A DNA stretch of 64,000 bases, taken from assembly GCF_000003815.2 (NCBI RefSeq), contig NC_049997.1, positions 6,850,168-6,914,167 of the forward strand, in the 5' to 3' direction. The notes below the pieces were generated by a model. It was not told the origin of the DNA and made no database searches. It saw only the letters and a program-made list of their open reading frames with translations. Shown piece after piece: positions 330 through 61,600 of this stretch. This stretch comes from Branchiostoma floridae (taxonomy: Eukaryota > Chordata > Leptocardii > Amphioxiformes > Branchiostomatidae). The translations under genes and the position numbers were made by a program. Position 1 is the first letter of the stretch. Every line of letters begins with the position of its first letter.

Positions 330-975
330 CATGATCATAGCCTGCTCATCACATGATCATCACGTGATCAGAACCTGCTTGTCTCATGATCATCACATGA
401 CTATCACATGATCAGAGCCTGTTTCCCACCTGTATGGTATTAACAACACCGTTGACTAGGGTGGCAATTCTGGCCGAATAATGTTACTATCACATGATCA
501 TCACAATTAATCACATGATCAGAGCCTGCTTGTCACATGATCATCACATGATCAGATCCTGTTCATCACATGATGATCACATGATCAGAGCCTTCTCATC
601 TCATGATCATCACGCGATCCTAGCCTGTTCCTCACCTGTATGGTATTAACGACACCATTGACTAGAGTGGCAATTCTGGCAGCAGTTGACTTCACCCCCT
701 CCTTGAGTTGGGATCATAATATTACTATCACATGATCATCACATGATCAGAGCCTTCTCATCACATGATCATCACATGACTATCCCATGATCAGAGCCTG
801 TTTGTCTCATGATCAGTCCTCACCTGTATGGTATTAACGACACCGTTGACTAGAGTGGCCATTCTGGCGGCAGTTGACTTCACCCCTCGAGTTGGGATCA
901 CAATGTTACTACATGTATCACATGATCAGAGCCTGCCATCACATGATCATCACATGACCAGACCATGTTCCTCAC
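330..975 (-). repeat. Minisatellite repeating the donor edge of ARFGAP exon 13
   Basis: Three degenerate copies of the exon 13 3' edge plus its splice donor start near 427, 630 and 818, in addition to the real one at 971. Each holds the complement of the VNGVVNTIQ codons and a donor, separated by runs of the palindromic motif catgatcatcacatgatcag. The copies extend 45-80 nt into exon sequence. In the direction of transcription the decoys lie downstream of the true donor. Confidence 0.85.
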
Positions 976-3900
976 CTGTATGGTATTAACGACACCGTTG
1001 ACTAGAGTGGCCATTCTGGCGGCGGTGGATTTCACCCCCTCCTTGAGTTGGGACAGGTCTGGGCCGGCCATGTCTGCGGCGCTCCGTGACGACTGTCGTG
1101 GCCTGTCCTCACCAAACAGGTCTGCGCTGGAGATGGACTGATTCCCGCTGAACCGGTCCAATCGCTGCTGAACCTCAAACTGAAATGAGGAAAAGCATGA
1201 ATCACTACAGGCCAGTAGAAACAGTCTCCTGGCTCCCGGGATTTGATTCCAAACCCGACAGCTTACTAACCCAACCCCAACACCGCGACGCTATGTTTGA
1301 CTGTAGACTATAAACTCTTCTCTACTTTGCTCTTGTTATTTTCTTCAGCCGGTAAGCGCCTACCCATATAAATTGTTCATTGTCTAATCGGTCCAAGATC
1401 TGGTCCACTAATTCTTTTCAGGTTTTTTCTTTTGTACCGGTCAGACAAGAAAAAACGGTTTTGTACCAGTACAGCCCTAAGTCAATTGCTCTATCACATT
1501 ACAAATAATCGGCACTTTTTGACAACAAAGAGACAAGAGCCTACCTCTGGTTTCTCCCTCCCGAAGAACTGGTCTGAAGAGATGCTCTTGGCATTGGCAA
1601 ACTTGGTCTGTGCCGCGTCAGTCTCGGAGTAGGACATTCCGACTGGCTCCTTCCTTCGGCTGGTCCTGGGAGGAAAATTTTTAAAATCAGAATAAGTAAT
1701 CAATTCACAGGATACATCAATGAAGCTTAGACATCCAGGTGACAAGATATGTCAAATAGCGGTTACTGAAGCAACTGGATATGATTTAGGAAATGGTCAG
1801 ACAAAAACAATATTCAGATCCCAAATGGTTCAACTGTGTATTTCTTTGCAATATACATAATGCAAAATGCTTCAGCATTTGATATCCAATATAATAGGCA
1901 CTTGTGAGGCCCACTTTCCACAGAAGCAAATTAAAAAGGCACAATAAGCATGCAATATCTCTGTTCCTTTACAATGCATGTACATGTCTATCTGTGTATT
2001 GCTCAGCTCAATGTGCAAATCTTGGTGTGCACACCCCTACAGCCTGTCTTGTACACACCTCCCTCCACCACTACATGCAGTGCATTACTTAAGCCCTTGT
2101 CACACAGTATTTGTGGATTGCCAGAACGTTGCCTGGCTGACAGAGGGTCACTCAGATTTTTTTTCTGAGAATCTACCACATACAATGTATGTAGACATTG
2201 ACTGTTCCCTAAAAATTGCGCAAGAGAACACCAGGTCACCATGTATTACTTCCAGAAACATCATTAAGACCTGGCAAACTCGTCAGCTGATCAATTTTGC
2301 ACTGTGTGACAGGGGCTTTATACCCAGCACCTCTGCGTTTTTGCAGGCTTTTTTGTGTATGGAGTGGTACCTTTCATCCAGTTCGGATTGCCACTCTTCT
2401 TGTGTCATGTCTTCTCTAGAATAGGTGGGTGATTGGTAGATGTAAGTCTTACAACTTGTATGTAGTTGTAGAACAGGGCTGTCTCAAGGTGAAAATTATT
2501 TTCTGCCCCACTGTTTTGGCAGCACACATGATCATTTTTGTTTGTAAATCTGACATTATTTCGTTACACCAGTCATGAAGCTCAGATTTTTTGAGGATCA
2601 ATTGTTTTCTGTTCCAACCAGCAATTTATTAGCCCCAAAATGGACGGAGGGGTCCTAGAGACAGCTCTGGTGTAGTATCTTATTTCTAAGAGTACTAGAT
2701 TTACTCTACATGTGTTTTGTGTACGGTTTTGCATTACTCTCTAGCTGTAAGTGCAAGTCTAATTTTTTTTTCACAATCACATGGTTATCACATAATTTTT
2801 ACAGTTATCACAATGATTTTCACATTGTTGGTATTACATGGTTATTACATGATTTTCAATTATCACATGATTTTTACATGGTTATCGATATCAATGGGAA
2901 CTTTCAAAAGGTCTAAGGTCATAATTAGGCTTTTCTGTCAAGTTGAATCATTAACTTTATGCAGTCCTTCATAGAAAGAACCAAGGAAAAAAAATTCTAA
3001 GCTGTTTGTATCTAATGGTTTATCATAAGACAATAAGACTTAAGACATCATGAATGGAAAAATTATACCAACCTTTCCCTGGATGGGGCAAAGTCATCTT
3101 CCCTCTTCCTGTCTATCTTCTCCCACTTCAAATCACCCAGTCCGTCATCGCCATAGTTACCTCTGTCCCGGCCGCGGTCTCGGAACGGGTTGTCATTATA
3201 TCTGTGGTGTTGAAGAAACTCTGGTGAGATACCATTCTAGTCGTTCTGGCCACTTTGTCAAAAACGTACTTGTCTAAGTAAGAAATAGCTGCTAAGCTAG
3301 ACAGGGAAATTTCGAAAAAGCCATCATAACCCCTTCTCTACCCCTTTTTGGCGCTGTTTATGTTTAATGATGCTTTTCTTACATACAAATGAATGAAATA
3401 AGACTCTTTGAATGAAAATTGCACACTATGAAAGAAAGAAAGATTTTATTGTTACTCACTTAGGGGGTCCGGAAGTGTAGCTGGATGCAAAGTCGTCGAA
3501 ACTGTCAAAGTCGTCACGATCACGTTCCTTTCGTGAGGACGACACGGGCGTGACCTGGTCAATCACCTTCATCTCTTGGACCGAGTGGGACACGCCACTG
3601 GAGGAAATCACATGATCATCACATGATCAGGGCATGAGCATCACATGGTCAGGGCATGAGCATCACATGGTCAGGGCATGTATGAGCATAATGCCATCAC
3701 ATTACATTCTGTTCTTTTCAGAGCCTGACTCACAGCCACTATATATACCTTGAGGAGGATTTGCTAAACCAGCCTGAGGTTTCTACTTTTGTGGGTGTGG
3801 CCAATAACCAGCGGTCAGCCAATCAGAGAACTGTCTAAATGATTTCTTTAGGTAAAACTGATTATCTGATTGGGTAACAGCTGGATAGAGTTCACAATCA

Positions 3901-6900
3901 CAAAAAAGTTCCTTTATTTACTTCAGAGCAATTTGTTACAAACAATCACTGCATGGCTAATATTTGGGACAATTACACCAAAAAGCAGTTCCTCAAACAA
4001 CTGGATATGATTATGGAAATGGTCAGACATTTCGTCAGTGACACTGAATTTGGGACAATTGTTTTTGGAACTGCAAACTGTTTCTACTCTACAAAATACT
4101 AAGGAATGACATAATCATCACAAGTTTTATATCATAATCTAATCAGGCACTCACCTCCTGGTCCCAGCTATCCCCATCCCTAGTCTCCGGCCTTCAGGTA
4201 TAAGATGGCATATCTACACTAACACCTAGAGTAGACCCTCAATTTCAACAGACAACCTGCACTAGAAATAAGTGTGGTTTATCCATCACCTATCACAAAG
4301 AAGAAGAAGAAGAGTGCTCACCTCCTGGTCCCAGCCATCCCCATCCCTAGTCTCTCGGCCTTCAGGGATAAGGTGGCATACCAGGTATCTACACCAACAC
4401 TTACAGTAGACCCCCAATTTCAACAGACAACCTTCTGTACCAGCAATACTAATAAGTGTGGCAGATCCATCAACTGACACAAGGAAGAAGAAGAAGAGGG
4501 CTCACCTCCTAGTCCCAGCTATCCCCATCCCTAGTCTCTCGGCCTGCTTTGCCTTGCGGGGGTCCGATGCCTTCAGCTTTTCCTCCTGCTGTTTCATGTT
4601 CTTACTCATGTTCATGTCTTGGTAGGCTAGGCGCATGGACTGGACCCTAATGTCATAGAAGAAGCAGAAATAGTGTTAAAGTTAGAATATTAGACACCAA
4701 GCAAGATTCAGAACTTAAACAGTGTCTCCTTCTGCTGTTTCATGTTCTTACTCATGTTCATGTCAGGGTTCTAGCTAGTGCATTTTAGCGTAGTGGGCCA
4801 CTACGCTAAAATTTTTGACCACTACGCTAAAATAAGGGCCACTACGCTAATTTTTAACTAGTGTAGTGGTGCTTTGCTATCATTTGCTTGTTCAACAATG
4901 TCTAATCAATGTCTGAACAATGAAAAATGATGATATGCCACTCACAACTGACCCCAAAATCCTTCAAATTACATGTGATGTTAACAGAGTGCCAACTTTT
5001 AACTCTACATTTTCAAAATGACCCCCTTCCACACCAATCTCCTGATTGGTCGCTTCACTACCATGCCATTCCCACTACGCTAAAATAAAATCCTGGCTAG
5101 AACCCTGCATGTCTTGGTAGGCCAGGCGCATGGACTGGACCCTAAAATCACAGGAGAAGCAGTTAGATAAACTCTACCTTTCAGAAATCGTCTTTAAATA
5201 CAACACAGGGTATTTGGTATCACCCGAGGTATGGCCTGACCGCGGGTAGCATCGCTAGAGTTCCAACCTACAGGAGGTCATGTCAGGCCAACTCGAGGAA
5301 ACTTAACTTTATTGCAAAGAAGAGCATAAGACGCGACATCAATGCACATGGCTTCAACAACTTATTTCGTTGAATCAAACAAAAGTTAAACAGCTGTTTC
5401 AATTTTCAACAGCAGCGCACGCAAGCAGGTTACAATCATTTGAATTGAAGTATGGAGCCCTGGGTCATACTGTAAAATATAGACTGTTTGAAACACCGAT
5501 ATTGGGATTTTATAGATATGGTTTATCCCACAATAGAAAATATCAAAGATTTGATACTTACATGGGGGTCTCTTTGCTCTCTTCTTTCTTGACCTGAGCA
5601 TCCATCTCAGCTTTGAGCTTGTCCTGCTCCAAGGCTTGTTTCTCGATCGACTTGAAGTCCTTCTTGACTTTCTGTGCACCCAGTCCTCCCTTCTTAGCTC
5701 CCAACTGGATAAAAACAACATCATCTTTGTTATCTATGAAAAGTACACAACACAACTAGTACTATGCTTTTTTAAAGAGTAACCAACTGTCCATATCATA
5801 ACATCAAAAAGAATCCAGCTGGTCCACTGGTGCACTACTCTTCCATAGACCATTCATTATTGATTCATTATGCTATTTATTGATTCCAATTGATTTTGCA
5901 TTGTGCCAAGTCTCGCAGTCTTTAAGGTAGCAGAACACAGTATTAGTGGGCGAACCCCGGGGTGTATGACGCGGGTACATAAAATAGTACGGATAAACTT
6001 GTTGAAGGAGAGGTAAAAAGCCTTATTTGAGGGGCAGCCAGATATAACCTGTGCTACGTGGTCACGGAAGGTGTCGACTCTGAGACTGCATGGTTTGGAT
6101 TGTGAAAGTTTTCTATTTTGTGTATAAATGCGCCCCATTACGCAACTGCCTTTCTAGCGTGAGCCGGCTGCAGTTCTGTGATCTCCGCAGAGGGGCATTT
6201 CAAAGAGGGCGTGAGAAGACGATACGCCGACAGTATTTTTTTGTTTTTTAATATATTGTGGCTTGTACCTTCAACTCAAACATATCCAATTTTGGTATTC
6301 CAAAAGTGCTCCCTACTATATTTTTCATTGCGTCGAAGCTAGTCACCTTGAGGCCCTTAACTATAGAAATCCCCATAGGCCGAAAACTGTGTTCTGCTAC
6401 CTTCAATGTGTATTGTACACAACATCAGCAGGGTGCTGCCTTAATCATAAAAGATTTTACATACCCCAGATTTTGTTTTCTTGGCACTGGCTGGTTTCCT
6501 GGTGCCTATAGTGGGCTTGTGACTTTCTGAAGAGGGGAGAAAATAAAGGACTTAGTAAAGTATTTTCAAAACTAAATCATTGTAAAACATTTCTTTTGCA
6601 AAGCCATTCAGATGCTTGACAGAGCAAAGCTCATGAGGAGATTTGCAGCTCTATAGTGCACATTTTCTCATCAAGGGTAGTTAGAGCTACATGCAAGCAA
6701 GAATGATAGCATGGAAAAAGCACAAACTTAGTGTCTGAAAAAGAGAAAAACTGATCAGCAAATACTTCAAACCACTGGAACAAGAAAAATTTTAATCAGG
6801 CTTGCAATTGTTGGCACAAACCAATGCGAATAACGTTCTGAAAGAAACAGATTTGGCAAGCCAATAAAACAGTGGTTTATTTCAGCTCTCCAAATGCACT

Positions 6901-9900
6901 AGTACTGGGTTGTCCCTTAAAAGTACAGGGACAGTACATTTTTAATAGCAGGGATGGAGAGCAGTGTTAGTAAAGTATGATGCTGAAACTGCAAAACGAA
7001 ATGTGAAAGGTGGATAGAAGCTAGAACAACAGTATCAATAGGCCAACATGAACACAAAAACAGATGCATACTGAGCAAAAAGTGTATACAATACTACAAA
7101 CATTCTTTGGCTACATCCAGAACAGGTGGAGAAAAAATAAACAAAATAATCAGTTCCACCAGCAAGCAATACTTAAACATCTACAAACCACCCGACCCCC
7201 TCCAATGAAACCATTGCTTTGAAATATGATCACAAAGGAATCAAAACACGTTCTATCTCAACATCTGTGGTCCCATCTGATATATACTTGAGAGAAGCAA
7301 AAACAGTTTCTTTCCATAATTTGCATCAAACTGCATATAGACAGTTCCTTTTCGGTTTAAGTCTTTTGAAACTTTCTGCTTCTCCAACTCAAAGTTTAAG
7401 AGTTGAGATATGTAAAGGATTTTTAGACATCAAGGTAATCAAATACAGAATACACAGTCACTGACAAAAGATAGCGCTGAATCGTTTGACCATGTACAAA
7501 ATGTATCCAGTTTCTTGCACATAAAAGCAAAGACGGGAACAATAGGGGGGAGGGTAGGTAGGGGGGTTTGCAGACATGCACTATTCAGGGTTCTAGCCAG
7601 GATTCTATTTTAGCGTAGGGGTAATGGTAAGGTAGCCAACAACCAATTAGACGGATGGTGTGGAAGGGGGGTCTTGGCCCTTCCACGGTGAGATTTTGAA
7701 AATGTAGAGTAAAAGTTTAAAACGTTGGCATGATAAGGGTACCAGTGAGGGGACTTACTGTAACTCTGTTGACATCACATGCAATTTGAAGGACTTTTGG
7801 TCAGTTTGGAGGGGCATATCATCATTTTTCATACATTATACTTGATTAGACATTTCAACAAGTAAATGATAGCAAAGTACAACTACGCTAGTTGAAAATT
7901 AGCGCAGTGGTCCTCATTTAAGCATGGTGGTTGCAAATTATAGCGTAGTGGCCCGTTACGCTAAAATGCACTAGCAAGAACCCTGCTATTCACACGGCTC
8001 ACGGTGCGACCTGAGGCTAGCCTGTGTCCTGACAGCAGGGCTGCCTCTGGAGTTGGTGTCAGAGCTGCTAGAGGGCGCACATAAATGGTAACAGTGAGTG
8101 GAGGACTGAACCAAAAGCACAAACCTGCTGCAAAGCAATTCAGACTTGTAAGCAGGGCTGTATCCAGCTTTTAATTTTTTTTCTGTCCCACATATTGTAA
8201 AGGATGTTGTTGCTTTTTGTTGTTAATCTGTCATTTAAGCTTCGAAAATACATTTTAATCAATTTCGTGTCATATTTTTGGACAGACAGGATAAATTTTT
8301 TCTATTCCAACATGCAAATTTCCATTCCAGGTTGGAGGAATAGGTCTCAAAGACAACCCTGTAGGATGCAGGGCTGTATCCAGCTTTTAATTTGAATTTT
8401 CCTGTCCCACTCTTTGCTAGGGAAGATGTGGAGTTTCTCTATAGCATGCCTTGGAAGGCAATAACCATGAATAAATGTGTGGAGCATTGCAAAGGAAAGG
8501 GACATATGATTGGAATTTGGAAGCCTGTTAATTTTCAACACTAAATCAGTTACTTATGAAATATACTTTCTGTTGTGAAGTCAAGATTATTGGACGAATG
8601 AGGTGAACTTTCTCATCCCAAGAAGCAAATTTCTAGTGTCCCGGCATGTCCTGGAGACAGCCCTGTCTGCATGTAAGACGACAGTAATTCACAGACACAA
8701 ATGTGCAAAAAGAAGCAAATCTTCACACTGACACAGTTTCTATCAGTCTGTAAAAAAATACATTGTATTCCTTTAAAACATAACACAGCTGTTTGTAACT
8801 AACCTGCAGTCAGCTTGGCTGCTGTAGGGGACATGCTCAGGGCTGCATGGACATCTGGTGCCCGTCCGTCCGCATCTTCTGCTTGTCCAAGAAAGACTAT
8901 GGTTAGTGTGTTAATATACTAATTTCAAGTGTTGTAACAAATGATTGCTGAAGTTACATTTCTTGGCACAGTGAAAGATTATGCGCTCATCACAAAATGA
9001 ATCGTCTTTCATTATGTTACTGCAGTTGTTTCATCCATGAACTCAAAAACAACGCGAACCCTCGACTTAACTTGGGTGCCATCCTCTGCAGTAACCATTG
9101 GCTCAATCTTTTTGCCGACAAACATGGCTCCAAGACCATGTTTAGCCAGGGAAAAGATTTAGCCAGTGGTTACTACAGAGGATGGTAGCCAGCAGGGTTG
9201 TTATAAATCCACTAGCCCGATTGTCCTGGGCAAATGAAAGTAGTTCAGGCAAGTGAATTTTCTATGTACTTGCCTGATAGGACAAGTGAATTTTAGAAAA
9301 CTTGTCCATCCCTGCCCAGGCTAACCATGAAAACATTTGGACAAGTGAGCAGTCATTACCTGATTCTTCTGCCTTCTTCCCATTGGTTGGCATCTGTATC
9401 GGAGTGGACAGGGCCGACCCAACCAGACTGGGGGCGGCGGGCGAGACGGGCGCCACTTTTGTCCCGTTCACGTGCTCGTCAAAAAAGTCGACCTCCTTGT
9501 GTTCAGGCGAGGTGGGCTCGTGCATGTGCCCGTGTGTGTCAATGTGGAGCTGTGGGGGACAGTTTGGTCAGACAAACAATGATTATTTTATGTCGATGTA
9601 GGTTAGACAAAACACATCCAGGTAATAAGATACACCAAAAAGTAGTAACTCAAGCAACTGGATATGGTTTTGGAAATGGTCAGACATTTCGGATAGAATC
9701 CACTATCCTTCGTCAGTGACATTGAAACGTCTGACCGTTTCCAAAACCATATCCAGTTGCTTGAGTAACTACTTTTTGGTGAATGATTATTGTACGTAAT
9801 TATTGTCATTTCAATAAACATTTTGTGATAAAATGTAGTTTAGATGGGAAAGAGGTTGATCCTTGTGTTCAGGCGAAGTGCCCTGTGTCAATGTGGAGCT

Positions 9901-12900
9901 GTGGGGGACAGTTTGGTTGATCAATACGTAAATATTATAATTTCTACTCCTCTCGCCAATCTACCGAGTGACTGTCCAGTAGGTTCATGCTGGTTAAGTC
10001 ACACGCCTTTATTCTTCCTGACACAAGATTTCTTTGGTCTACCATGGCCTGACTGCAATTTATCAGAATTAGGATTGTGCCAGTATTACAAGTATATCTA
10101 TAAAATTTCTTACGACAAAAAAAAATCAAGGTATCACAACTTACATAATGTAGGTGTTGAGTCATTTCAACTTGAGAAGGATCAGAGTACTGATCGAAAG
10201 CTTGTTGGTAAGCACTTTATTTTGTGCATGGATATCTTAAAACTGTAACATAAGGTATCACACCTGTGTTCCATATTTCCTCATGGCGGCAGAAGCCAAG
10301 CCGTGTAACTTGTCCTTGTACAAGGTCGCGGCACGACTGTTGTACTTCATCTTGGCGTCGTTAGTCGTGCAGCCGTGTTGGCGAAAAAACTGCTCCTGTA
10401 AGTGTAAACATGATGTAAGAACGGTGAGGAAAGAACACTGTTACAGTAGATCTTTATTCTCGTACAGATACAAAAAACTTTGGAAACAAGAAAGACTTGC
10501 TAGAGTCTTAGAGAAACAAGAATAAGAGGAAGTACTGTAAATAGAACAAATAAAGATGTAATGTTCGCAATGGTTTTATTTTCACAGTGACTGCTTCACT
10601 GCAAACTTAAAACCGCCACCAAAATTTTTGGTCTATAGTCTACTGGCCTTCCCCCTTGTCTAAGCACTACTGTACATCAGTATTGTCATGTATGTATTAG
10701 AGCACTATGTACCTAGCTTTTCAAACTGGCTGTCCTAAATAATGGCATCATCATTATCATTGGTTGGCATCGGTATTACAATCATGTGACTTAGTTGTAT
10801 TGTTTTATATACAAACTTAAAACTGCTGCATACACTCCATTTTCCCACTACTGCAGATTTTAATCCCTGCAAACTTAAAGCCTTTTAGTTTACACTTATA
10901 CATATAGCCGGCTGTACTTACAGCATGGGCATTCCCGCCCGCCTGCATACAGCGCAGCTGGTGCCATGTCCAGTTTGTGTCCAGCTGAGTGGACCTGTGT
11001 GGGAGATAACACTGTCAATTACAAATGTAGTGATACAAGTATATACTTAACTAGCAGAACTTAAGTCTTAAAATTCATGATTGCAATGAAATGGACAATA
11101 CTTTGGCAAGTAGACTCAAATTACTGCTGATGTAAAGTAGTCTTTACTTGTCGTTTGGCAATTGTTTGACAAAAGTCCAAGGAGGTAGTGTAATCCATAT
11201 TACTTCAAAGTATTAGCAGTTACATTTTACAAGCTATCACATGTTATGATTATTGGTTGTACTTTTATTAAGTTGATTTTTAAAACAAACAAAAAGTGAA
11301 AATGAAAATGTTTAGTTTCAAACTTTTTGACAAAGACATTTGCCATATGAATCACTGTTGGAAGGGTGTGGTCTGACTGATGAAGTGTTACAGTCAGCAT
11401 TTGACCTTTGCAGAAAGACTACATGTACATTGTTTCTCCTCTACATAAACATGAATTTTCTTTTTCTTAGACTAATAGTTTTGGGCATACAGTTCATATG
11501 TGAGAACTGTGCAGTCATTAATTGAAGTAAATTGAACTTAATTTGTTTCTTATGTTCTTGAAAAAAGCCCCATCCACTCCAGGAAACCACACCATTCTGT
11601 TAGACATTCTGTCAATACTAGACTTATGCCTGTGTCAATGGGAAAAATTATCTAAGCAGCCACCACAATGTGGTCATATTCTGTGGCCCGGGGTCCTTAT
11701 GTACAGGTGGTGACTTGTATGTTTGACAGTCATGCTGTGTATTTAGCATGACTTTTGTACCATCAAATTGGACAACAAATCCTGAACACTCTTTGTATAA
11801 TTGGATTACAAGATGACGTCAAATGACTAACAACACAACCAGACTATGTTAACCCACCTGACAAAGGACAGATGCACACCCAGCGAGCGGTGAGTCGCTG
11901 AGCAGTCAATGCACAGGAAGACCCCATAGGTCACGGAACTCCATGTCGGGTTATTGGCTTGACAATCAAAACATATCTGGACAACAACAAAAAATACACA
12001 GCCATGTGGATTACCTCTTAATAAAGTTCACATATACATGTAGAATGGACATGTACATTCATGATGTATCATTATATGAAATACTATTATTACTATTATT
12101 TATCTATTTAGATAGGACTTCTCTTCACATTTGCACAAAAGAGCAACAACTTCAGAAGTCAGCATATACCCTACCTATGATTCTATTAAACAAAGATTGT
12201 AAAGATATGAACTGGCATTTGTGGTTGTATTGTCCTGAAATGGACTTCGAACTTCGAAATGGACTGACTACAAAAACATATGTTTGTAAATAGTACTTTG
12301 AAACTGATTTTAAACACTAGAACTTTTAAAGCAAAACAGAACAATATAACTAATACTAATAGTTTGTGAGATAATTCAAATGAGATCAAGAAAGAAGCTA
12401 TACATATGTACGAGCGCTTGAATGGATGGATAATGTAGACAGCCATTCATATTGTATAAGGTGCGAAATTTCGCAACTCGAACTAGACCTCATTATAATA
12501 ATAAAGTCCATTGTACGCTCTTTGGCTTCTGTGACTTCAACGACAGCTATTTTTGGCTTGTTTCGACCAATATCATGTGTTCTACCTTTTGAGTAAATTC
12601 AGGGAAATCTTCAGACAAAAGAACAGGACTAGGATAAAAGATTTACCTAAACTACGTCACGAATTTTGTCTATCAAACCCGGACCATACCGGCTTTTTTC
12701 TCATCCCTCGACCAGGTATCTGTGAAAAATGGCGTATATACGCCATTGCTCTGCGACTGACCAAATAACAAGCACGTTGTTTGTATCCCCAAGTCTTCCT
12801 CAAATTTACGGACGGTAGAGTCAAACAAATCTTACCTTATTTGTCGGGATAGACCGAAGTTTCTTGAAGATTGCGGCGATGTCTTGCTTGGTAGGGTCGG

Positions 12901-14787: not shown

Positions 14788-14873
14788 AAGACGGCCAGCT
14801 GTGTTGATAAACATTGGCAGGTGAAGGTCCTTTCAGAAGGGATCATCTCATCATTATGCCAAAAAGCTCAGTT

Positions 14874-17572: not shown

Positions 17573-20500
17573 ATGATGCCCAACAACAACCAATCGGATG
17601 AGAGCAAGAACTCATCCAAGGATGTGGACATGCCGCCTATTGGAGATGGTCAGAATTGAACTTACTGCTTTTTTCTGGAAGTCTATTTACAGCATTGGAA
17701 ATATACAAAAGTATATGTTGATGTGAATCTAGCTATAGTATAGTACATGTTTAATACAAGTTTATAAAGTGTAGCAACCTATAGGCTGATTTGAGCTTCT
17801 CATGAGTAGATAAAGGTTCAAATACAAACAAAAAAGTAAAGCTCTAGCCAACAAGCTTTTGATTGGTCCTCTGGTCCTTCTCAAGTTGGAATGACCCAAC
17901 GTCTACATTTTGTATGTCACATGATGATGATGATGTCACATGACCTGCATGGTTAATTATTAAAGGATCAGAGGATTGATCGAAAGCTTGTTGGTAAGAG
18001 TTTTACTTTGTATACAGAAGAAGCACATACAATCTCCACAACACGCCAAAAAGCAGTTCCTCAAGGAACTGGATATGATTTTGCTTGAGTAACTACTTCT
18101 TGGTGTATCTTATTACCTGGATGTCTAACCTTCATCGACAAATCTCTACAACAGTATTGTTGTTAATTAATAATTTACAGGCCCTGAGTCCCCAGAGTCT
18201 AGTGAAAGTGACGAGCTGGCGTCTTCATCCGAGGGAGAACTGTTTGGGAAGCGTCGCCGCATGGGCATCCCTGTCAGCAGCCCCTTCAAAACTCCCCCGG
18301 GAAGCCCCTTCAAGATGCCCATGACCATCCCTTCTCGTAAGTCGATCTTATTTCGAGTTGGAAGTTTTGAAGATAAAGGTAACTGAGGAAGCCCAATAGC
18401 ATTCTTTAAGCCGTAGGGGCAGTAGATTTTTATCCTCTGTGTCCAGGCCTCCAGGGCATGGTATTGGACCAACTCTTTCCTTCCACCACATTTTATAACA
18501 CAATACATCCCCAACGTCAGGTACCCGTTTTTACACCTGGAGGAAAACTGCGTCCAAAGAACACAACAAAAAGACAAGAATGTTGCTTCTGCTAGACCAG
18601 CCACTTAGCCATTTATAATCAATGAATAAGGAGTCTAATGTTTTACAAGGATGAAACTGATCTAACTCTGTGAGAAAATAGACACCCAAGTATTGCTGAC
18701 AATTGTCAAATCTTATTCATATGTATACAGTCATCTGTAAATTTCTGTATTTCCACTCAATTCTCATGTGCAATGCATCTTTTAATCACATGATGATAAT
18801 CACATGACAATCACCTGTTCCCCAGCCTCCCCTCCCCAGTGGATCTCCCTGGAGGAACTGATGACTGTGTCCAACGGGGTGACTAACATGGCGCTGGCTC
18901 ATGAGATCGCTGTTGACAATGACTTCCGACTACAGAAGTACATGCCACCTGAGAACAGGTAACAGTAATAGATTTGAACATCTGATAAAAATCGTCCCAT
19001 CTTGAAACCTCTCAGTAGCAAACTGTGAAATAGATGCTTATTGAAACTGTCCTTGGTGCTGAATGATGAAGAGTTCTAGGTTCAATACTTATTGTAAAGG
19101 CAAGACTAGTGATCAGTGATCAGTGCCATCTTTGATGCAGGTCTCTTAGATATTATGGATTCTTTCCTTGGTGCTGAATGACAAAGGGTTGTAGCTTCAC
19201 TTCTTTTTGAAAGGCTAGGAAAGGACTTAAGTCTTTAAAATAGTATAGAAAGACAGTGCACATCAGTGTATTTGTAACTTTTTCTTTAACTGTGCAGTGT
19301 TTACAAATAATTTTTCAGTTTTAAATCATTATGTTGATTTTTTTCTTAGCGTTGAGAAGCAAGTGAAGGAGACGGTGCACAGGGCATTCTGGGATGCCTT
19401 GCGAGACGAGCTAGCAGAAGAACCGCAAACTTTTCAGCACGCCATCAACTTGTTGGGAGAGGTGAAGGAGGTCAGTGCCTTCTTTCTCATCTTTGCAACT
19501 GTTATATTACCTGAGGATTACCAATAGCTTGCCTTTTGTGCAGTGCTGCTTTCCTTATTACTTCAAATACTGTTATCCTAGGCCATAGAGGCATGTTCGG
19601 GCATGACGCACCCGCCATGACACATGAGTCAGGGGTAGGAGGAACCCCTTGCATCCTTGGTCGGAAGTCCTCCTAGGAGATGGAAAACTCCAAACAACAA
19701 ACCTGCATCTGCTAGGGCCGTCTTACACGTTGCAAACAGTTGCCCCTGTAGGACTAGTGCGCCAGTGGACGAGAGGGTGGAGAAGGACGTGCACACCCCT
19801 CCTTCACCATAAAAACCCAAGTGCAGGCCAGGCAGACGGGTCGCCTTAAACCCGTCTGCCTACCATTGTGTTCCGAGACAGACGGATGCCAAAAAACTGT
19901 TATCCTAGAGCAGAGCTCTAGCCAGCTCGAATTTTTTTTCCGTCAGCCAATTCCAATCGTCTTGAAAACCGCGAAAATTGATTTTCCCTATGACCCAACA
20001 AAGTAGTAGATGTTGCCATTGAGACCTTGAAAAACCGGTTTTAATGAGTATGCAAAAGGGCGCCGACACACATTGTCAACAATCATATCATTGGCAATTG
20101 AAAGCAAACAGTGTGTGGCTTTTACTGCCGTGGACGGCGTCCCCAAGCTGCTTGTAGCTTCCACCAAGGATTTTTGTCCGTCAAGGTTGACGGATTGGTT
20201 TTAAAATTTTTCCATCAGACGCAGCAAATTTCCGTCAATTGGCGGAAAAACGGAAGCTGGCTAGAGCCCTGTCCTAGAGTCACATTTCCAAAGTGGGGCC
20301 TGACTGTCGGAATGTCAGAAATAAATGCTTGTATTCAGGAGTATACGCAAATTATGGCCATGACCAATTTTCCTTAACTCTTAATGTCTTAAAGGTAATT
20401 TTAGTTTCTGTAGACTGTCTGACCAGGTACCAGTTTGGAAATGGAATCCTAGCATAATGTGCAGTGATCATGTGATGATCACATGCTAACCATGCCCTGT

Positions 20501-23500
20501 TCACATGACCTACAGATGCACATGTCCATCCTGCTTCCCTTGTTACATGCAGTGATCATGTGATGATCACATACTTAAACCATGCCTTGTTCACATGACC
20601 GACAGATGCACATGTCCATCCCGCTGCCCCATGTTACATGCAGTGATCATGTGATGATCACATGCTAACTATGCCTTGTTCACATGACCGACAGATGTTC
20701 GTGTCCCTTCTGCTGCCCCATGTTACATGCAGTGATCATGTGATGGTCACATGCTAACCATGCCTTGTTCACATGACCGACAGATGCTCGTGTCCCTCCT
20801 GCTGCCCCATGTTACATGCAGTGATCATGTGATGATCACATGCTAACCATGCCTTGTTCACATGACCGACAGATGCTTGTGTCCCTCCTGCTGCCCCAAC
20901 ATTCCCGGCTGCGTGCCCAGATCAACGAAGTCCTTGACCTTGACCTGATTGCACAAGAGGCGGAGCACGGCGCCTTAGATGTGAATCGCTGCGCCCGGTT
21001 CGTGATCGACACCATGGGTCGGCTTTGTGCCCCGGTCCGTGACAAGGACATCGAAACTTTACGTGAAGTTGATGGAGCAGTCAACATGTTTAAGTAAGAA
21101 ACATTTTGTGTTTGAAGTATTGCCTAAAAGCAGTTACTGAAGCAGCTAGATGTGATTTTGGAAGTGGTCAGACATTTGAGATAGCATCCACTATCTTTCG
21201 ATCTTATCACTCTTTCCAGTGGCACTGATGAAAGATAGTGGATGTTATCTAAATGTCTGACCGTTTCCAAAATCATATCCAGTTGCTTTTCAATGAGTAA
21301 CTGCTTTTAGGCATATCTTATTACATGTACCTGGAACAAAAATCACTCTCAAATGTTAGTGATCAAATAGTTGTGATGATGAAATTTTAGCGGTTGAATA
21401 GACTGCTAAAATCTAAAATGGCTGAAATTGAATCAATGTTAACAAAATTTATCAAGAATTGTAATAATTATTAGTAATTGGTGTCTAGCATATTCACGTG
21501 TTTTGTTTGTTTTTCTAGGGAGATTTTCCGTGTTCTGGAGCTGATGAAAATGGACATGGCCAACTTTACCATCCAGTCGATGCGCCCGACCATCCAGCAG
21601 CACAGCGTGGAGTACGAGCGCAAAAAGTTTCAGGAGTTCATCGACAAACAGCCGAGTACGTTGAGCCTAATGTTTAGTTTAGTTTTAGTCTTTCCTGCTC
21701 TAGATGGTGTATATGGTGCGTAGCCTGATTAAATCTTGCTTATAGCAGCCTGGCCAACATCTGAGGGTCCAGTTACAGCCCTAGACAGCAGAGTTTGTGT
21801 TACAGGGCTGTCTCCAAGACCTGTCCCTCCCTCCCAGGATGGGACTTTGCTTGTAATTTTATGGGATAGAAAAAAATTCATCCTGTCTGTCCAAAACTCT
21901 GTACTTCATGACATGAAATTGCTGAAAATATATTTTTGTAAGTTTAATAAAATGACAGATTTAACTGACAACATGGGCTCCCAAACAATAAGCGGGACAG
22001 AAAAAATGAAGAGCTTCAGACAGCCCTGATATGGTGGCACCCATCTCTGTTTCAATAGCCCTTGGGCCACACAACTTTAAATTTGTATAATCACTATGGC
22101 AGGGGGCTAGTACACTGGTAGTGGTGTGTGTTCAACTCCAATATGAGTGCTAAGCAGAGAAAGTCTTTGAATCAATAGAACTCATGACCCAGTGCATGAC
22201 TTAAAGCTTAATGTTTCCCCCTTTTTCCTTTTCAGATGGTAGTTGTTTGTGTTAAACTCCCAGATACTGATTGTTAAGCAGAAAAGCAGTGTGTACAATT
22301 CAATTTAAAGTCTTTGACTTGGTCTAGATCAAACTCATGACCTACTAAATGACTAAGGTTAATGTATCTCCCTTTTCTTTTGCTGTTCAGATGCCCTTGA
22401 AGTCACCAAGACATGGCTGTACCAGGCTGCCGAGGAGGCAAAGGCTTCACATCTCCCCTCAGGACCAGCTGAAGGGGCAGCAGCAGCAGCAAAGGTCACC
22501 CCCATGGATGTGTTGGGACATGCCTACATCATGCTGCTCAAGTGGGAAGAGAGCAAACCATTTCCTGAGGTCAGGGGTGTTTTCTTAAACAAATGTTTCA
22601 TGTATCTATTCATTTATTTGTATAACGGAGAATGTCAGGTACTTAGCTACAGTCAGCTACTCAGTGGCAGTTAATAGCTGGTGCTGCTCTGCATGCTTGC
22701 ACTGATCACATGATTTCTCTACCCCTAACAGACAGTTCTGATGGACCAGGAAAGACTCGCAGAGATCGGAATGAAGTGCCGACAGATCACCCTCATTGCT
22801 TCCATCCTGCTCATGACATGTCATAATCATGTCTTAACCATACATTGATCACATGGTGGTCATGTGTTGATCATGCATTGATCACATGATTCCTCTACCC
22901 CTTACAGACAGTTCTGATGGACCAGGGGCGACTAGCGGAGATAGGAGTGAAGTGCAGACAGATCACCCTCATCGCTTCCATCCTGCTCACGACATGTCAT
23001 AATCAAGTCTTAACCATACATTGATCACATGGTGGTCATGTGTTGATCATGCACTGATCACATGATATCTTGACACCCTACAGACTGTTCTAATGGACCA
23101 GGGGCGACTGGCAGAGATAGGAGTGAAATGCCGACAGATCACCCTCATCGCTTCCATCCTGCTCATCACGCACAACGTCGTCGGGGCTGCCCTAGCTGGA
23201 CTGCAGGAGTTCGGCGAGAAGCTGAAAGGCACCCTGGGAGTTCTGCTAGGGGATATGCAGGAAAGGTCGGTTTCTAGGTGGAGATTTGGTTATCTCTGAA
23301 GATACATTTTCACTGGTGCTTGGATGTTGACTTTTGAATATACTAAAAAGCATGATGTAGTCTGCCTGCCTACCTCAGCTTAGGCCCTGTGAAGGGCATT
23401 AGATTCTTGATCTGGTCTTCCCAATTTATTGGGGGGACTTTCCTGGGTTCTGCAAACTCCTTGTCTTCATCTCTTTGTATATCAATTCATAGGGTAATAT

Positions 23501-24773: not shown

Positions 24774-25015
24774 TCACTGTCTGTGCATGAGTGTATCATG
24801 TGATGTTCATGTGATCGTCATATGATATTCACATGATCTGGTTGACCAATCATATTCAGCTAGTGGCAATGACATCATCAGCGGGCTCTTCCCAGCAGCC
24901 AATGGGCTGTCAGATTAGTCACTGTCTGTGCATGAGTGAATCATTGATATTCATGTGATCATCATATGATATTCACATGATCTGGCTGACCAATCGTATT
25001 TCAGCTAGTGGCAAT
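24774..25015 (+). repeat. 3' UTR duplication that includes the TCP11L1 stop-codon region
   Basis: A unit of about 145 bp covering the last 45 coding bases, the TAG and following UTR is repeated once downstream. The copy's PAANGLSD-stop equivalent ends near 24918. It contains catgtgatcatcatatgat palindromes. The second copy lies wholly in the 3' UTR. Confidence 0.85.
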
Positions 25016-52600: not shown

Positions 52601-55600
52601 TATAATCTTTATAATTACCTACCGACCCAAATTTTTTTTCAGGACTGAAACAGGAAACACAATATTTTTTCCCTAGGCCTTATCATCATGACAACAATAG
52701 GTACCTGGCAAAGAGGGGTTCCTCCCTGCAACTGTAAGAAGTGCACAAGAACACAGTAAGCCTACAAAGCCATTATATACATAGAGTTCTTAGTTCAGGT
52801 ACAGACTCAAGTAGGCTGCATTCCTGTAGCACCTGTCATATAGTAGATGCAGACTTTGTTTTTGTCAGAAAATCTACCCCCTAACATTTGTCAGGGCTCA
52901 TCAGTGATCTGCAAACTTTGAAATGTGCGCATTGCTGTCAAAATGTCATTTCAACTTGTTCAAGCTTACAGACTCATCAGCCAACTGATTTTCTTGCTTT
53001 ATTGTGTCAAATAAGCTGTTCCAAAACTTAAATGCTAAAAAAAACGGTAACAGTAAAATGCAGCCTACTTGAGTCTGTACAGAAAGTATCACACACGTGA
53101 CAGTAGTAAATACAAGTAGTTATTATCGTGCACTTAAGACTGTTCGAATCTTCGTGATCCAAGTCGGACAGACGTGACGTGCAGATCTATGATCTTGTGA
53201 TCCAAGAAGGTGTAGATCCAAGAAGATGGTGTTATTTTTCTTAAAGATTGTCGTGGCTGATTTGTCATGCATTCCCTGATTGGTGAACATGCAACACGGG
53301 CAACACCCTTATAAGGACCAGGACTGTACCACTTCGCCATCAAGCAGGGGGAGTATCTAAGCCAACCCCCTGCTATGACAGCACAGCGGCGCCTCCTAGC
53401 ACCCAAAGGATGTACTGCATGCAGGGAGGAACGCGAAGCTTCACTCACCCTTACCTAGGGGGATGTCTTCAGGTTTAGCCCCTGCGCGTAAGGACTGGAT
53501 TTTCATCTCAACAGCTTCCTTGAGGTCGGGAGGAATCTGGAAGATCTCGCGGTGGTTGTCCACCATGTACATGACAAGCTGTTCGGTCTGGCCCTTGCCG
53601 AGAACAGGGTTTCGCACGACAGCCTTGGTGAAGGCTCGACGGATGGATGTTCTGTTGTCACACTGGGATAGTGTACAAAAAACATGCGTTATTTCAACTA
53701 CTTCGCATCCTTCTAAACTTAAGTTGGGGGATTGCAGACTGCCAAGAGTTATTTTACCATCTGATTTCTCCCGGGGCTCCTTGTACCTTTCACATCCAGC
53801 ATTTACACAATTCTAGTTGTAAACTTTGTTTAAAGTTATCTGGTGAAGATGCTCCTAGTGAGGATCTCAGCCAAGCATGCATCCAGGTACCATTAAATTT
53901 GGATGCACTGTTTTAAGTATAACTTCCCAGGGATGCTACTATGTACTAGTACTAGGTCACTTGTAAGTTAGTTACATTTGTCTCTTACAGTAATTTTGCC
54001 CCTCAGGATACCTTAGAATGCACCATTTCAACTTAAAATTCTCAAAAACTTGACACCATGGATGCACCCCTGCAATACTCTTGCCTGTATCACTTGCCGC
54101 AACTCTTTAAGAAATTCAGACACCGTATCATAAAATCCTAGCCAGAAAAAGCCTGTTCTCATCTTATTGTGGTTAGACTAGCTGTGTGTTGGTGGAACAC
54201 AGTGCCATGAAGCGCAGTAACCTCCTCATACGTACAATTATCATTACAAATGTCTAACAACAACCTTGCCTTTCACCTTATTGTGAAAGAGAAACTGTGT
54301 GTTGGTGGAACACAGAGCCATGTAACGCAGTAGTATCCTCCTACGTACGATCATCATGACAAATGTCTAACAACAACCTTGCTTCTCACCTTATTGTGGA
54401 AGAGGAGCTGTGTGTTGGTGGAACACAGAGCCATGAAGCGCAGTAGTATCCTCATCATACGTACGATCATCATTACAAATGTCTAACAACAACCTTGCTT
54501 CTCACCTTATTGTGAAACAGAAGCTGTGTGTTGGTGGAACACAGAGCCATGAAGCGCAGTAACCTCCTCAGCTCCTCCCTGCTCTCAGAAGGCAGCAGCA
54601 GCAGCACCAGCTGTAGGGCCTTCACTGCCTGGGCTAGCTTACTCTTCACTGGGGAGAGAAATAACAAATTCAATAAGCAAGAACAAACTTTTTGTAGGGG
54701 CTGCACCCATGAAAAGACCAAATACTTGACAGTTTGCTCAATGAATGTCATTGATTATTTAAGAACATAAGTTTTTCTTTAATTGCTGTGTTATGTTGCT
54801 TGTTCACAAAAGAATCTTTGTCAAAAGGTCATGGGTAGCAGTGGCACTAAAAAGTTGACAATATCAAAAACAGATGAAACTTTTTTCCAGTAAGATAATA
54901 CAGAACTGTTTCAATTGTCATGTGATAATCATATCATGCAATGATCATGTGATGCCTGAGAAACTAACCAATCAGCCCAAAGACAGTCACATGTACATCA
55001 AACAGCCGATTGGTCAGCAGTAGGTTTGCATATAGGTGGGTGTAGTATCATGTGAGGATCATGTGATAATCATGCCATGATCATGTGATAATCATGTGAT
55101 GTCTGAGAAACTAACCAATCAGCCCCAAGACAGCCACATGTACATCAAACAGCCGATTGGTCAGCAGTAGGTTTGCATATAGGTGGGTGTAGTATCATGT
55201 GAGGATCATGTTGTAATCATGCAATGATCATGTGATAACCATGTGATGCCTGAGAAACTAACCAATCAGGCCAGGACAGCCACATGTACATCGAACAGCC
55301 GATTGGTCAGCAAAGATTCGTGCAGGTGTATGTAGCATCATATGCAAACATGTGATGGTCATGTGATAATCATTCAATGTTCATGTGATGTCTGAGAAAG
55401 TAACCAATCAGGCCCAGGACAGCCACACGTACATCAAACAGTTGATTGGTCAGCAGCGACTCGTGAAGGTGGGTGTAGCGTCATCATGTGATAATCATGC
55501 AATGATCATGTGATAATCATGTGATGGTCATGTGATAATCACGTGATGGCTGAGAAACTAACCAATCAGGCCCAGGACAGCCACATGTACATCAAACAGC

Positions 55601-58600
55601 CGATTGGTCAGCAGAGGTTTGTCTATGTGGGTGCAGTATCAAATGTAAAGCATGTGATGGTCATGTGATAATCATGTGATGCCTGAGAAACTAACCAATC
55701 AGGCCCAGGACAGCCACATGTACATCAAACAGCCGATTGGTCAGCAGAGGCTCGTGAAGGTGGGTGTAGTGTCATGTGATGATCATGCAATGATCATGTG
55801 ATAATCATGTGATGGTCATGTGATAATCATGTGATGCTTGAGAAACTAACCAATCAGGCCCAGGGCAGCTACATGTACATCAAACAGCCGATTGGCCAGC
55901 AGAGGCTTTTGCAGGTGGGTGTAGTGTCATGTGATAATCATGCAATGATCATGTGATAATCATGTGATGCCTGAGAAAACCAATCAGGCCCAGGACAGCC
56001 ACATGTACTAGTACATCAAACAGCCGATTGGTCAGCAGGGGCTCGTGAAGGTGGGTGTAGTGTCATGTGATGATCATGCAATGTTCATGTGATAATCATG
56101 TGATGGTCATGTAATAAGTATGTGATGGTCATGTGATAATCATGTGATGCCTGAGAAACTAACCAGTCAGGCCCAGGACAGCCACATGCATACATCTAAC
56201 AGTTGATTGGTCAGCAGCGGTTCATGCAGGTGGGTGTAGTGTCATCATGTGATAATCATGCAATGATCATGTGATAATCATGTGATGCCTGAGAAACTAA
56301 CCAGTCAGGCTCAGGACAGTCACATGTACACATCAAACAGTTGATTGGTCAGCAGCGGCTCATGCAGGTGGGTGTAGCATCAAATGTAAAGCATGCAATG
56401 TTCATGTGATAATCATGTGATGGTCATGTGATAAGTATGTGATGGTCATGTGTTCATCATGTGATGCCTGAGAAACTAACCAATCAGGCCAGGACAGCCA
56501 CATGTACATCGAACAGCCGATTGGTCAGCAAAGGTTCGTGCAGGTGTATGTAGCATCATATGCAAACATGTGATGGTCATGTGATAATCATTCAATGTTC
56601 ATGTGATGTCTGAGAAACTAACCAATCAGGCCCAGGACAGCCACATGTACATCAAACAGCCGATTGGTCAGCAGAGGCTCATGCAGGTGTGTGTAGTGAT
56701 CAGCGATGGCCTGGTAGAGGGAGAGTTTCCATTCGCGCGTGTCGGCCGCGGTGTCGCTAAGCTTCATCCCGATCGTCTCCGGCATGAAGTCCAGACACGA
56801 CAGGCCAGAGGTTATCCAGGGGTCATGGGTCAAGAAATAACTGGACATACGGAAAAGACGAAGCATTAGGGTTTCACAAACCTTGAAATGAAAACATGAC
56901 TCAATTTATAAAGTTATCAGTTGTTTTATTTTGTGTATTCTTTTCTTTCTACTGTCAATTACCAATATCTTATAACAATGCACAAAGTTGCCCAAGAAGA
57001 CAACTGAGGGAATTATTAAAATCTGGTCTATATGAAGTCTTCAAATGGTCACTATACTATGTCTATAGAGAGAATTCTTAATGTTCACATTGGCAAGATA
57101 GAAGTGGTCACTTTTACAGGTTTGACTTTTGTTGCTACTACCAATACAAACTCCGTCCCAAGACAGAAATTCGCTTATTAAGATGAAAGAAAATATAACA
57201 CCATCCATCCCAAAAATCTGAACTTCATGACATTAAACTGTAGAAAATCTATTTTCACGTTCTTAAAGTTTTAACAAGAACAACACAGGTAGATAGATGA
57301 AGACTTACTTGATGCTGTCGCTGTCAGAATCCGAGCTTGCCGTACAGGTGTTGGAGATGACCAGGCCTCGCCGCATGCTGAGTCGGTGCTGCTTGGCTTC
57401 GCTACACATGCTGAGGATGCCGTCCAACAGGGGGAGCTCCACAATGGTCAGGAGTTTCACCAGGGTCATTTCCTTCCAAACCTCGTCTAGGACTGAAAGG
57501 TCTGAAAATTAGTACAGCAGGAGACAGCACAGGGTTAATCGGAGGCAGCAGCCAGAGATGGAATGACAGGATGAATGGATAAAATGTAGAATGGTGGAAT
57601 GAATGAGTGAGTGCTTCAACAAGTGTTGAATGAAGGTACATGGACATGTATAACACATTTGAGTTGTGCAAGTTGGATGGATGAAACAATGATTGGAATG
57701 AATGAGTGCTTGAATGAATGTACATGGACACATTTCAGTTGTACCAACATAAAGACAATATTGAGACGTATGGATGAAAGCATAATGATGAAAGAATGGC
57801 TGAATGGAGGGGAAGGGTGCACATGCAATATTTTGAACACACACTTTCAAGTACAAATATTAAAGTTGCAGTTGATCATATATTACTTTTTCACACAACA
57901 AAAAACAAGACACACTTACACAAGCCCACACATGCAAAAAAACTATATATAATAGTATTAATACCTAATTTTTCATAGAGGTAACCACAACATTTGAAAC
58001 TTTTTCCAAAGACAGTTGTAATTGTATCTTTGATGCTTGTACACTCAAAAGCAGAATTTTATTCACATATCTGCTTTGAATCTGTGGAAAACCCTACCAA
58101 AAGCTGTTGGTCTTGCAAGCTAGATTGTGAGGGGTAAAGTTGGTCATGGATCTATATAGCCTGTTGTGGATTCCCCTACTGTACTTGGTGGCAACAAGAA
58201 GTGGCAAACTGTTTGTAACATATACTAGTTGGACATTTACAGGGTTGGGATAGGTAAGGGAAAGTCAGGGAGGTTGGGAGATATACTACTACCTATAATT
58301 ACGCATGGCTCCATGTCATCTAATGACAATGCCTCTTTTGTACTTAGCAGCAAGGTGGGCACACAATAGAATACAGAATGGCTAGTAGGGTAGAATGGGT
58401 AAAGGAATGACAGGGAGGTTGGGAATATAACAAACCTGCGTGGGATATACTACAGGATGAGCCATTGCTGGCCAAACTGCTGGTGGAAGACCAGATGGAC
58501 TCGGTCTCTTGGCTGTACGTCTCGCCGAACAGCTCGCGTAGGATCTCGTCACTGGTTGCCATGGCGAGGGTGTTCTGGATCACACCTGATTCGTCCTCGT

Positions 58601-61600
58601 CTGATTGGCTGAAAAATACATGTCATAAAAACACTGTAAATTGATAAAAAAATAGCAGTCTGTAATTCTAGCGGCTGGGACAAGGGAATACTAGTAGTTC
58701 ACGGTTCAAATTCTAACATTGTGAACAATGTTAAAATCAACATTATGGAAAATTCAATTTCTGCATCATATCTGCATATCTGAACAGAAAGCCACAATTG
58801 CACAAAAACACAGTAAATTTCCTGTCATACATGTAGAACATGTGCCCCTCTCACCTGTCTTCACTTGACATTGCCACATTCTCCTTGCCATCTGCCGACT
58901 TACTGGCTTTTGTGAACCTACATTTTGTGAGTGCAAGAGAGTTAAATCACACACACCGAAAAGCAGTTAAAACTTAAAGTAGAAATAACCAGAAAAGATC
59001 AAAGAATGCACCAGCAGTACAAGTATGCAGTATGCACTTACAAAAGTCAAATCGATCAGTCCTATCCAAAACAATGACATATCTTTTGACTTGGAGATAA
59101 TTTTCTTCTATATAAATTCTAACCTACTGAATTGGAGGTGCAATTTCTTCTATCCAGTTAAATTTCAGGGGTTTAATATGGTTCACCTGTATAGTTTGCT
59201 GTTGCTGTCATCGAATGGTCGAGACTTCCCCTTGGACTTTGCCTTCATACCCACAGGCTGGAACACTCCATTGTCCATCAGCACCTGTTTCAATATACAG
59301 ACCAAACTTCAATAAAGATCAGGTGAATGCTACAAACAGCCACAATCCCTTTTCAATACTGATTAATGTAGCCAAGTCACAAAAATTGACAGATGCCATT
59401 CAAAAGCATTTAAAGCTTACCCCCTTTGTGCCGTAATACTATTAGTTTGAATCTTCTTACTTTAATTTTCAATCTTTGTGAAAAAAAATCTCATCAACTT
59501 GTACAAGTTTTGAACTCTAATGAAGCTATGTGAATCCTGTGAGGATCATATGGGTTATCTATTCATAAAATAAAAAAAAATAAAAACATGGACTGTATAC
59601 CAGTTCTCTCTCTCTCTTGTACTCTGTCTGATACTAGTACAGTCAAACCTGTCTATAGCGGCCACTCAAGGGACTGGTCAAAATTGGCCACTATAGAGAG
59701 GTGGCCACTATAGAGAATATGCTAATTAATTGACCACAAGCAATAAGTTACACATGGTTTTAGTACCCACTGATCTTTATTCACATAATACAGTACTGTA
59801 CATGTACTGCAATGATTTTACACTACATGTATTAAGAAAACAAAAGCTATAAAAAGTTTTAAATGTTCTACAGTTGATATTGTCAAAGAGACCGGTATCG
59901 TCATATTTCTTTGATCTTTTGTCTTGTATCCTTTGATACTTCGCCGTCCGTGTGTTCCCTCCCGCGTTCACACGTCAGGTTCGCCCATTATGCTAATGTG
60001 GTACTCACAAGAAAAGTCTCGTCATTTTAGACTTATCTCTTAATAAATGTAAGAATAAAATCCACCATAGTCTGAAGTTCATATCATTTTGTCTTTGTAA
60101 CAATTCATTTAGAAAGTTTTTGTGATAAAAATTAACCTAAGCGATAGTGTATTAGAACGTAACTTTAACGCAATTTACCTCTGTAATATTGGTGTCGTCT
60201 ATTGACCTTATATGACCTCGCTTGTCGGCGGGTATGGGTAGCGCCAGTTTTGTTTTGAAAATAAATCAAAGAGGTTTTAAATCCGGCGTAGGGTGACGAT
60301 ACGGCAGCTGTATATGGCCGAACGCGTGCCGAAACATAGATCAGCGGTCCGCGTGGCCGTAATCGGCAGTGTTTTTGTACCTGCGGGACCGGAAATCGTG
60401 TGGCCGTGGCCGCGTTGGACAGGTGGCCGCTAAGCCTATTTCTTAATCATTACGAATCCAAGGGACCGACAAAAAGTGGCCACTATGGGCAGGTGGCCGT
60501 TATGCAAAGGTGGCCGCTAATACAGGTTTGACTGTACGTACCTGGCACAGTCTGATAACTTTCATCCTTGTGATATCGCAGGCCCCGAACTGAAAACTGT
60601 TGTCCTGTAGGTACATGAGCAGCACACCGACAGCACCAACTGCCACTGAGACAAATCTTGTCATGTCTGTCTCTTGGATTAACGTGAAACATTGAGTACG
60701 TACCTGACACAATCTGATGACTTTCATCCTGGTGATATCGCAGGCCCCAAACTGAAAACTGTTGTCCTGTAGGTACATGAGCAGCACACTGACAGCGTCA
60801 GCTCCAGCGAAACAGTAATACTAGTACGTACCTGACACAATCTGATGACTTTCATCCTGGTGATATCGCAGGCCCCGAACTGAAAACTGTTGTCCTGCAG
60901 ATACATGAGCAGCACACTGACGGCATCAGCGCCTGTGAAGCAGTGTTGATGGTACTTCAGACCCCGCCGGTGTCTCCGCACATTTGCGTGCTCCTGGAGG
61001 TGGTGGATGATTCCATTCCAGATCTGTGTTGCCTTGAAGGGACCTGTTAAAGTAATAGGTGTTACAAAATCATGGACAGACAAAAGATGACAAATTGTAA
61101 TCTTTACTACCATTGTGGTAGTACATGTACCTGCAATGACTCAAGTCAATTTAATGGCATCTTTTGCACTACTTATCCTTCAACTTTTTTCAGGCCATGC
61201 AAGTTGACAAATTTTGCTCTTTGTTTTTGTGACTGTGGTGCAATCTACAATTGACAGATACATTTGAAAATTGTCTTAAACATTATCTACTCTCAAGTCT
61301 TGAATGATTACTTACTAAGTACTAGTCTGCTCCAAATGTCTACTGCAAATTTTTCTTTTTTAGATAGGAAGATTATTCAAGGTTGTGATTACCTGATGCT
61401 ATTACCAGTACAGAACTTTATCATTTTGAACAGAAATGATGCTACAAATGTAGGTTAAATAGAGGATATTGTCTTCTTCTTTCGCAGTCTAGTCCCAGGA
61501 GATCCAGACACCCTTTTTGAAAAGAACATTAAATTTCCAACAACACAAACAAAATCTAAGACGTACATAAATTACTTATAAACTTCTGACATCACAAAAT

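Follow-up and report, generated by a model that had tools for sequence, protein, structure and literature searches.

The window analysed here is a 64-kb stretch of amphioxus DNA (C19:6850168-6914167, taken from one assembly only, of 513 Mb in 431 contigs) that contains 522 N and carries the neighbouring genes ARFGAP2/3, TCP11L1, TMEM258 and DEPDC7. The splice edges of the four genes were set by frame- and phase-consistent joins together with splice scores, and exons are numbered as in the earlier note on this DNA. Several of the edges discussed below lie in or beside regions matched by profile searches. The spliced TCP11L1 product matches profile positions 1-435 of the 436 of Pfam Tcp11 (E 1.2e-118), continuously over both of its duplicated acceptors (exons 6 and 9), and the match of DEPDC7 exons 2-3 to DEP crosses the duplicated exon 2 donor. 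The match of TMEM258 exons 2-3 to chain 6s7o_C (E 4.6e-41) starts exactly at the duplicated exon 2 acceptor, and the match of ARFGAP exons 2-5 to ArfGap stops short of the duplicated exon 5 acceptor. For the rest of the duplicated edges (four in ARFGAP, and those of DEPDC7 exons 7 and 8), the definition comes from open frame and splice scores only.

An edge was counted as duplicated when a direct duplicate of at least 30 bp and at least 70% identity was present within 3 kb and extended at least 12 bp to each side of the edge. By this test, 10 of the 54 modelled edges in the window are spanned by a local direct duplication. All nine splice edges named as duplicated in the earlier note are among them, the tenth being the acceptor of ARFGAP exon 9, and the TCP11L1 stop codon, also named there, does lie in a two-copy unit. 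No duplicate was detected by the same test at the ARFGAP exon 1 donor, the ARFGAP exon 2 acceptor or the TCP11L1 exon 2 acceptor. The earlier note mentions arrays of this type at the amphioxus Adh locus, and the literature indeed names them 'mirages' (PMC3087553, PMC3902484). The features are as follows:

327-1053, minus strand: ARFGAP2/3 exon 13 donor mirage; functional edge 975/976, with decoy donors in the intron at distances of 152, 340 and 546 bp
4150-4545, minus strand: ARFGAP2/3 exon 9 donor mirage; unit 184 bp, functional edge 4505/4506
4613-5162, minus strand: ARFGAP2/3 exon 9 acceptor with a lone dispersed copy at 5108-5162; edge 4646/4647, absent from the earlier note
9526-9917, minus strand: ARFGAP2/3 exon 5 acceptor with a lone dispersed 40-bp copy at 9878-9917; edge 9549/9550
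20460-20898, plus strand: TCP11L1 exon 6 acceptor mirage; 89 bp x 4.9, functional edge 20872/20873 in the last copy
22698-23169, plus strand: TCP11L1 exon 9 acceptor mirage; 176 bp x 2.7, functional edge 23083/23084 in the last copy
24725-25017, plus strand: TCP11L1 last-exon unit with the stop codon and 3' flank; 145 bp x 2
38473-38807, plus strand: TMEM258 exon 2 acceptor mirage; edge 38723/38724, decoy acceptors 169 bp and (partial) 287 bp upstream
54156-54570, minus strand: DEPDC7 exon 8 donor mirage; about 113 bp x 3.6, functional edge 54505/54506
54912-56702, minus strand: DEPDC7 exon 7 donor mirage; 11 decoys at a spacing of about 130-183 bp, functional edge 56622/56623
60534-60944, minus strand: DEPDC7 exon 2 donor mirage; two decoys lie 128 bp and 290 bp downstream of the functional edge 60831/60832

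Eight of the ten duplicated edges lie in tandem or near-tandem arrays whose units include an exon part, the splice site and an intron part, as in published mirages. The acceptors of ARFGAP exons 5 and 9 have one short dispersed copy each (43 and 55 bp aligned, 350-500 bp off), and these are neither minisatellites nor tandem in the manner of mirages. The exon part of the duplicated block measures 24-113 bp, a wider range than the 25-80 coding bases first given, and the location of the edge within the unit varies among arrays. Both kinds of edge are affected, as had been claimed, with the junction inside the unit: the 21 edge families found in this analysis comprise 12 donors and 9 acceptors. 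Mirages also mislead gene prediction: in the DEPDC7 exon 2 array, two exons were predicted within the repeats by our own gene finder.

A search for decoy splice sites yields 86 matches in 20 arrays. The score equals or exceeds that of the functional site in 69 of them, and 83 are placed to the intron side of that site, the other three being spurious distant matches; with all five spurious distant matches removed, the counts become 69/81 and 81/81. Decoys are situated downstream of donors and upstream of acceptors, and therefore the exon-joined site yields the shortest exon. The exon-joined copy is the one that preserves the protein frame. The statement in the earlier note that no other copy remains functional is a prediction from this geometry.

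The window also contains repeats of other kinds. An 11-bp minisatellite, ATCACATGATC, occurs at 326-3672, 18785, 20466-24982, 34319-34362 and 54943-56607, with 74 matches at no more than one mismatch versus 1.9 expected. Exact copies number 28 in the window and 0 in 271,850 bp of other loci, and an exact pattern search of the whole genome finds the dimer at 14 places, three of them in the window, so this is a regional repeat family. The 11-mer is present on both strands inside several junction arrays, including the intron part of the ARFGAP2/3 exon 13 donor mirage. A 22-bp intronic minisatellite (23970-24206) begins no more than 5 bp from the donor of TCP11L1 exon 10, for which there are two candidates, and its unit includes no useful length of exon. 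Two GC-rich arrays of 20-bp units (29541-29748 and 31103-31248) stand about 1.4 kb apart, each the reverse complement of the other, a layout reminiscent of the two termini of an inverted-repeat mobile element.

For comparison, 33 gene-bearing loci outside the window were selected without regard to repeats. Twenty 10-kb regions form the random set, of which 13 with gene models (38 exons) were used and seven had no model that was used; in L024, the one exon retained was picked by hand. The myosin set started from eight loci, from which L035 was removed as a near copy of L032, leaving seven. The kinesin set comprises nine loci of ten regions, the C2 exon having been left out deliberately with its repeat already visible in the match list. 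The ArfGap set was drawn from L001-L008 and contains four loci, L004 being part of the window, L005 having no model, and L007 and L008 being left out for their overlap with L002. The myosin, kinesin and ArfGap loci were located by profile matches. The gene models are home-made throughout, and the minimum coding score for keeping an exon was 10 for the random and myosin loci and 6 for the kinesin and ArfGap loci. Myosin loci were picked for exon density and kinesin loci from the match list, so these sets are not random, yet they were picked with the sequence unseen. L032 and L035 (on C11 and C9, respectively) have near-identical predicted exons, which points either to duplication in the recent past or to a haplotype placed wrongly.

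The short tandem duplications of splice edges are real in the window and recurrent in the other loci sampled. The 20 random regions contain 39 local duplication families, and among the 38 exons of this set there are two donors with clear arrays (L013 and L022) and one acceptor (L019) with a dispersed copy 75% identical. The names EGF-like for the L013 exon and calcium-channel-like for the L022 exon, like the name AGAP-like, come from reading the peptides and not from profile matches. The first units of the L013 array (8566-9326, minus strand) are 57 bp long and in frame, and the exon, whose end was placed by hand at the first repeat boundary, might read through several repeats; the array consists of either donor decoys or real protein repeats. 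L022 has an additional donor (at 9347) with 9 bp of exon inside the unit, which falls below the 12-bp cut and is excluded from the counts. One myosin gene (L031) has three duplicated edges on two exons, including the acceptor of a myosin-head exon, where about 21 decoys follow one another every 50 bp (1132-2233). Most units of that array read ...TACAG/GTGAGAG..., the decoy acceptor being followed directly by donor-like sequence, as in a zero-length-exon or ratchet-like site. Further cases are an ArfGap donor with five decoys (L002), two duplicated donors of one kinesin gene (L041), and one exon of L001 with both edges duplicated, one of them only 71% identical. The C2 kinesin exon has two extra partial copies of its start, as judged from match coordinates only. 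No comparable row of partial copies was seen by eye among the 142 myosin matches, in which short exon parts would escape notice.

Whether edges are hit more than chance depends on the unit of counting. Per position, 10 of 53 window edges are covered versus 8.9 expected under circular shift (sd 2.7, P=0.41). Coverage of the edges (10/54 in the window, 3/76 in the random set, 3/56 in the myosin set) compares with 12-22%, 5-10% and 2-7%, respectively, of intron positions 100-500 bp away, and position-level enrichment is thus absent in all three. Since one edge array also covers much intron, a family-level test was adopted in which each family is collapsed to a single founder unit and then placed randomly in the collapsed gene. 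This test supersedes a count of array ends relative to edges, which was uneven but confounded through the inclusion of both copies. Outside the window (33 loci), 11 of 27 duplication families span an exon edge versus 4.31 expected (P=0.005). The excess is also present among families at least 85% identical (9/17 versus 2.81, P=0.0025), and those at least 90% identical give 4/11 versus 1.53 (P=0.07). Window families span edges in 10 of 18 cases versus 2.33, a count from an ascertained stretch. None of the outside sets is significant taken singly (P 0.06 to 0.27), and the 11 edge-spanning families are clustered (three in the L031 gene, two in the L041 gene and two at one L001 exon). Relative to the 208 modelled edges outside the window, they amount to about 1 in 20; if the sample is typical, extrapolation would give thousands of duplicated splice junctions genome-wide.

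The reading we favour, with a probability of about 0.7, is that tandem duplications of about 40-180 bp, of an end-joining type, arise frequently and would be tolerated at exon edges as splicing uses the exon-joined site. Segments of this size would duplicate in tandem throughout genes and their flanks. The probable routes are the repair of staggered breaks, through end joining or fill-in, and replication slippage on a few bases of homology, and some duplicates may later expand as minisatellites. When a unit straddles a splice site, the gene models suggest that the exon-joined site, giving the shortest exon, would be chosen under exon definition, and that the extra copies, being on the intron side, would be spliced out. 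Duplications that enlarge the coding sequence would presumably be removed by selection. The edge copies of the window would then be what can be seen of duplication going on across the whole genome, in which edges are favoured no more than 2- to 3-fold. In six young duplications with two copies, the period is 58-163 bp and the homology or overhang at the joint is -1 to 5 bp (values up to 15 in either direction would have passed the filter); such short joint homology would fit end joining, fill-in of staggered breaks or slippage, and not recombination between long repeats. No block containing a whole modelled exon occurs among the 66 families. Some observations count against this reading. One duplicated block (4581-4618, its copy in an intron) lies entirely within a coding exon, and the family-level edge excess, with and without masking (see below), is unpredicted by purely random placement.

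That excess may itself be an effect of persistence and detection, in that a conserved exon part would keep edge-spanning pairs alignable about twice as long as intron-only pairs, an explanation to which we give only slightly less than even odds. In seven of the ten window arrays, the exon part of the decoys is closer to the functional copy than the intron part is. Because a conserved functional exon keeps edge-spanning pairs detectable for longer, functional exons were masked before detection, which leaves 7 of 24 outside families spanning an edge versus 3.23 expected (P=0.046) and 6 of 16 in the ascertained window versus 2.00 (P=0.016). Masking thus lowers the outside excess from 2.6-fold to 2.2-fold, with P rising from 0.005 to 0.046, as the persistence effect would have it; against it, part of the excess survives both masking and the restriction to families at least 85% identical. 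What the outside loci show is a modest excess of families at edges, 2- to 3-fold, which becomes borderline without the detection advantage of conserved exons.

The surviving part of the excess suggests preferential origin at exon edges, and a shared mechanism starting there, as raised in the earlier note, is possible; the overlap of repeats with splice edges exceeds random placement per family in the 33 outside loci and does not do so per position in the window, the random set or the myosin set. Edge arrays would then be the product of a hotspot and not a random share of duplications, caused for instance by breaks or replication trouble tied to co-transcriptional structures or to nucleosome phasing at exons. 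The unmasked, at least 85% identical and masked counts, together with the ascertained window count, speak for a hotspot. We nevertheless consider it rather unlikely, given the absence of a per-position excess, the result at 90% identity, the inconsistent position of the edge inside the unit, and a small sample with home-made models and eleven families clustered in few genes. The quantitative form of the idea, that short tandem duplications are seeded about 2-3 times more at exon-intron edges than at random gene positions, is about as unlikely. If true, edge seeding would continuously supply the lineage with spare splice junctions beside its exons, a lasting reservoir for the gain and sliding of introns and for instability at exon ends.

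It is much less probable that the decoys are selected as spare or alternative splice sites, recruited on contraction of an array or used in minor isoforms. GT/AG is retained in 29/29 window decoys and in 76/76 decoys of 16 arrays versus 63.7 expected, and an array-level count, which omits two arrays without a long enough decoy, gives 15/15 versus 10.05 (P=0.0015). Retention above that of neighbouring dinucleotides is not obviously predicted by pure decoy neutrality; however, the comparison is biased because the functional copy never changes those bases, whereas the positions used for reference vary in it too, and units within one array are not independent. Changes confined to decoy lineages (eight arrays with at least three decoys, one array with two decoys being omitted) hit the splice dinucleotide once versus 2.5 expected (P=0.28) and codon positions 1 and 2 31 times versus 44.3 (P=0.02), the latter in favour of selection. 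Constraint on decoy splice sites, apparent in the raw retention, is not upheld in the decoy-lineage-only counts, and the claim was dropped. Mismatch rates between functional and decoy copies (0.040, 0.038 and 0.137 at codon positions 1, 2 and 3; 0.090 in the intron) are as would be expected with a functional copy under purifying selection and drifting decoys. Finally, it is hardly credible that the arrays are artefacts of assembly or haplotype merging, even with the N present in the window, a draft-genome misassembly of a globin mirage (PMC3087553) and a PGBD5 array whose repeat number was unequal between two assemblies (PMC3902484), since the copies diverge by substitutions and indels, and the globin array was rebuilt from trace data (PMC3087553) and the PGBD5 sequence confirmed by resequencing (PMC3902484).

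Mirages have been published gene by gene in amphioxus, for Adh3, troponin C, the globins BflGb6 and BflGb9, and PGBD5 (PMC3087553, PMC3902484), and globin RT-PCR and Adh3 data suggest that they leave splicing undisturbed (PMC3087553). Published mirages share with the window arrays the tandem units across an exon-intron boundary, whether at a donor or at an acceptor; many of their units retain AG/GT, and the globin and PGBD5 units measure about 60-160 bp (PMC3087553, PMC3902484). Unlike the published cases, the window has ten edges in four neighbouring genes of 64 kb, two of them with single short dispersed copies. A genome-wide measure of edge enrichment was not found in the literature searched, which mostly excluded subscription journals. 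Amphioxus VCBP3 introns contain complete or partial exons similar to adjacent exons, some with canonical splice sites (PMC2632668); these fragments resemble those of the window, although their repeat structure is unstated in the relevant passage ('data not shown', PMC2632668). Intron gain by tandem duplication, to which the AGGT duplication model belongs, is a related system. A potato gene gained an intron via a duplication crossing an intron-exon boundary, with the same geometry as the window duplications (PMC4974935); the potato duplication produced a new spliced intron (PMC4974935), whereas those of the window are known from sequence. The window arrays belong to an already named class and are locally dense, and what the present analysis adds to that class is a small measurement of edge spanning in loci outside the window.
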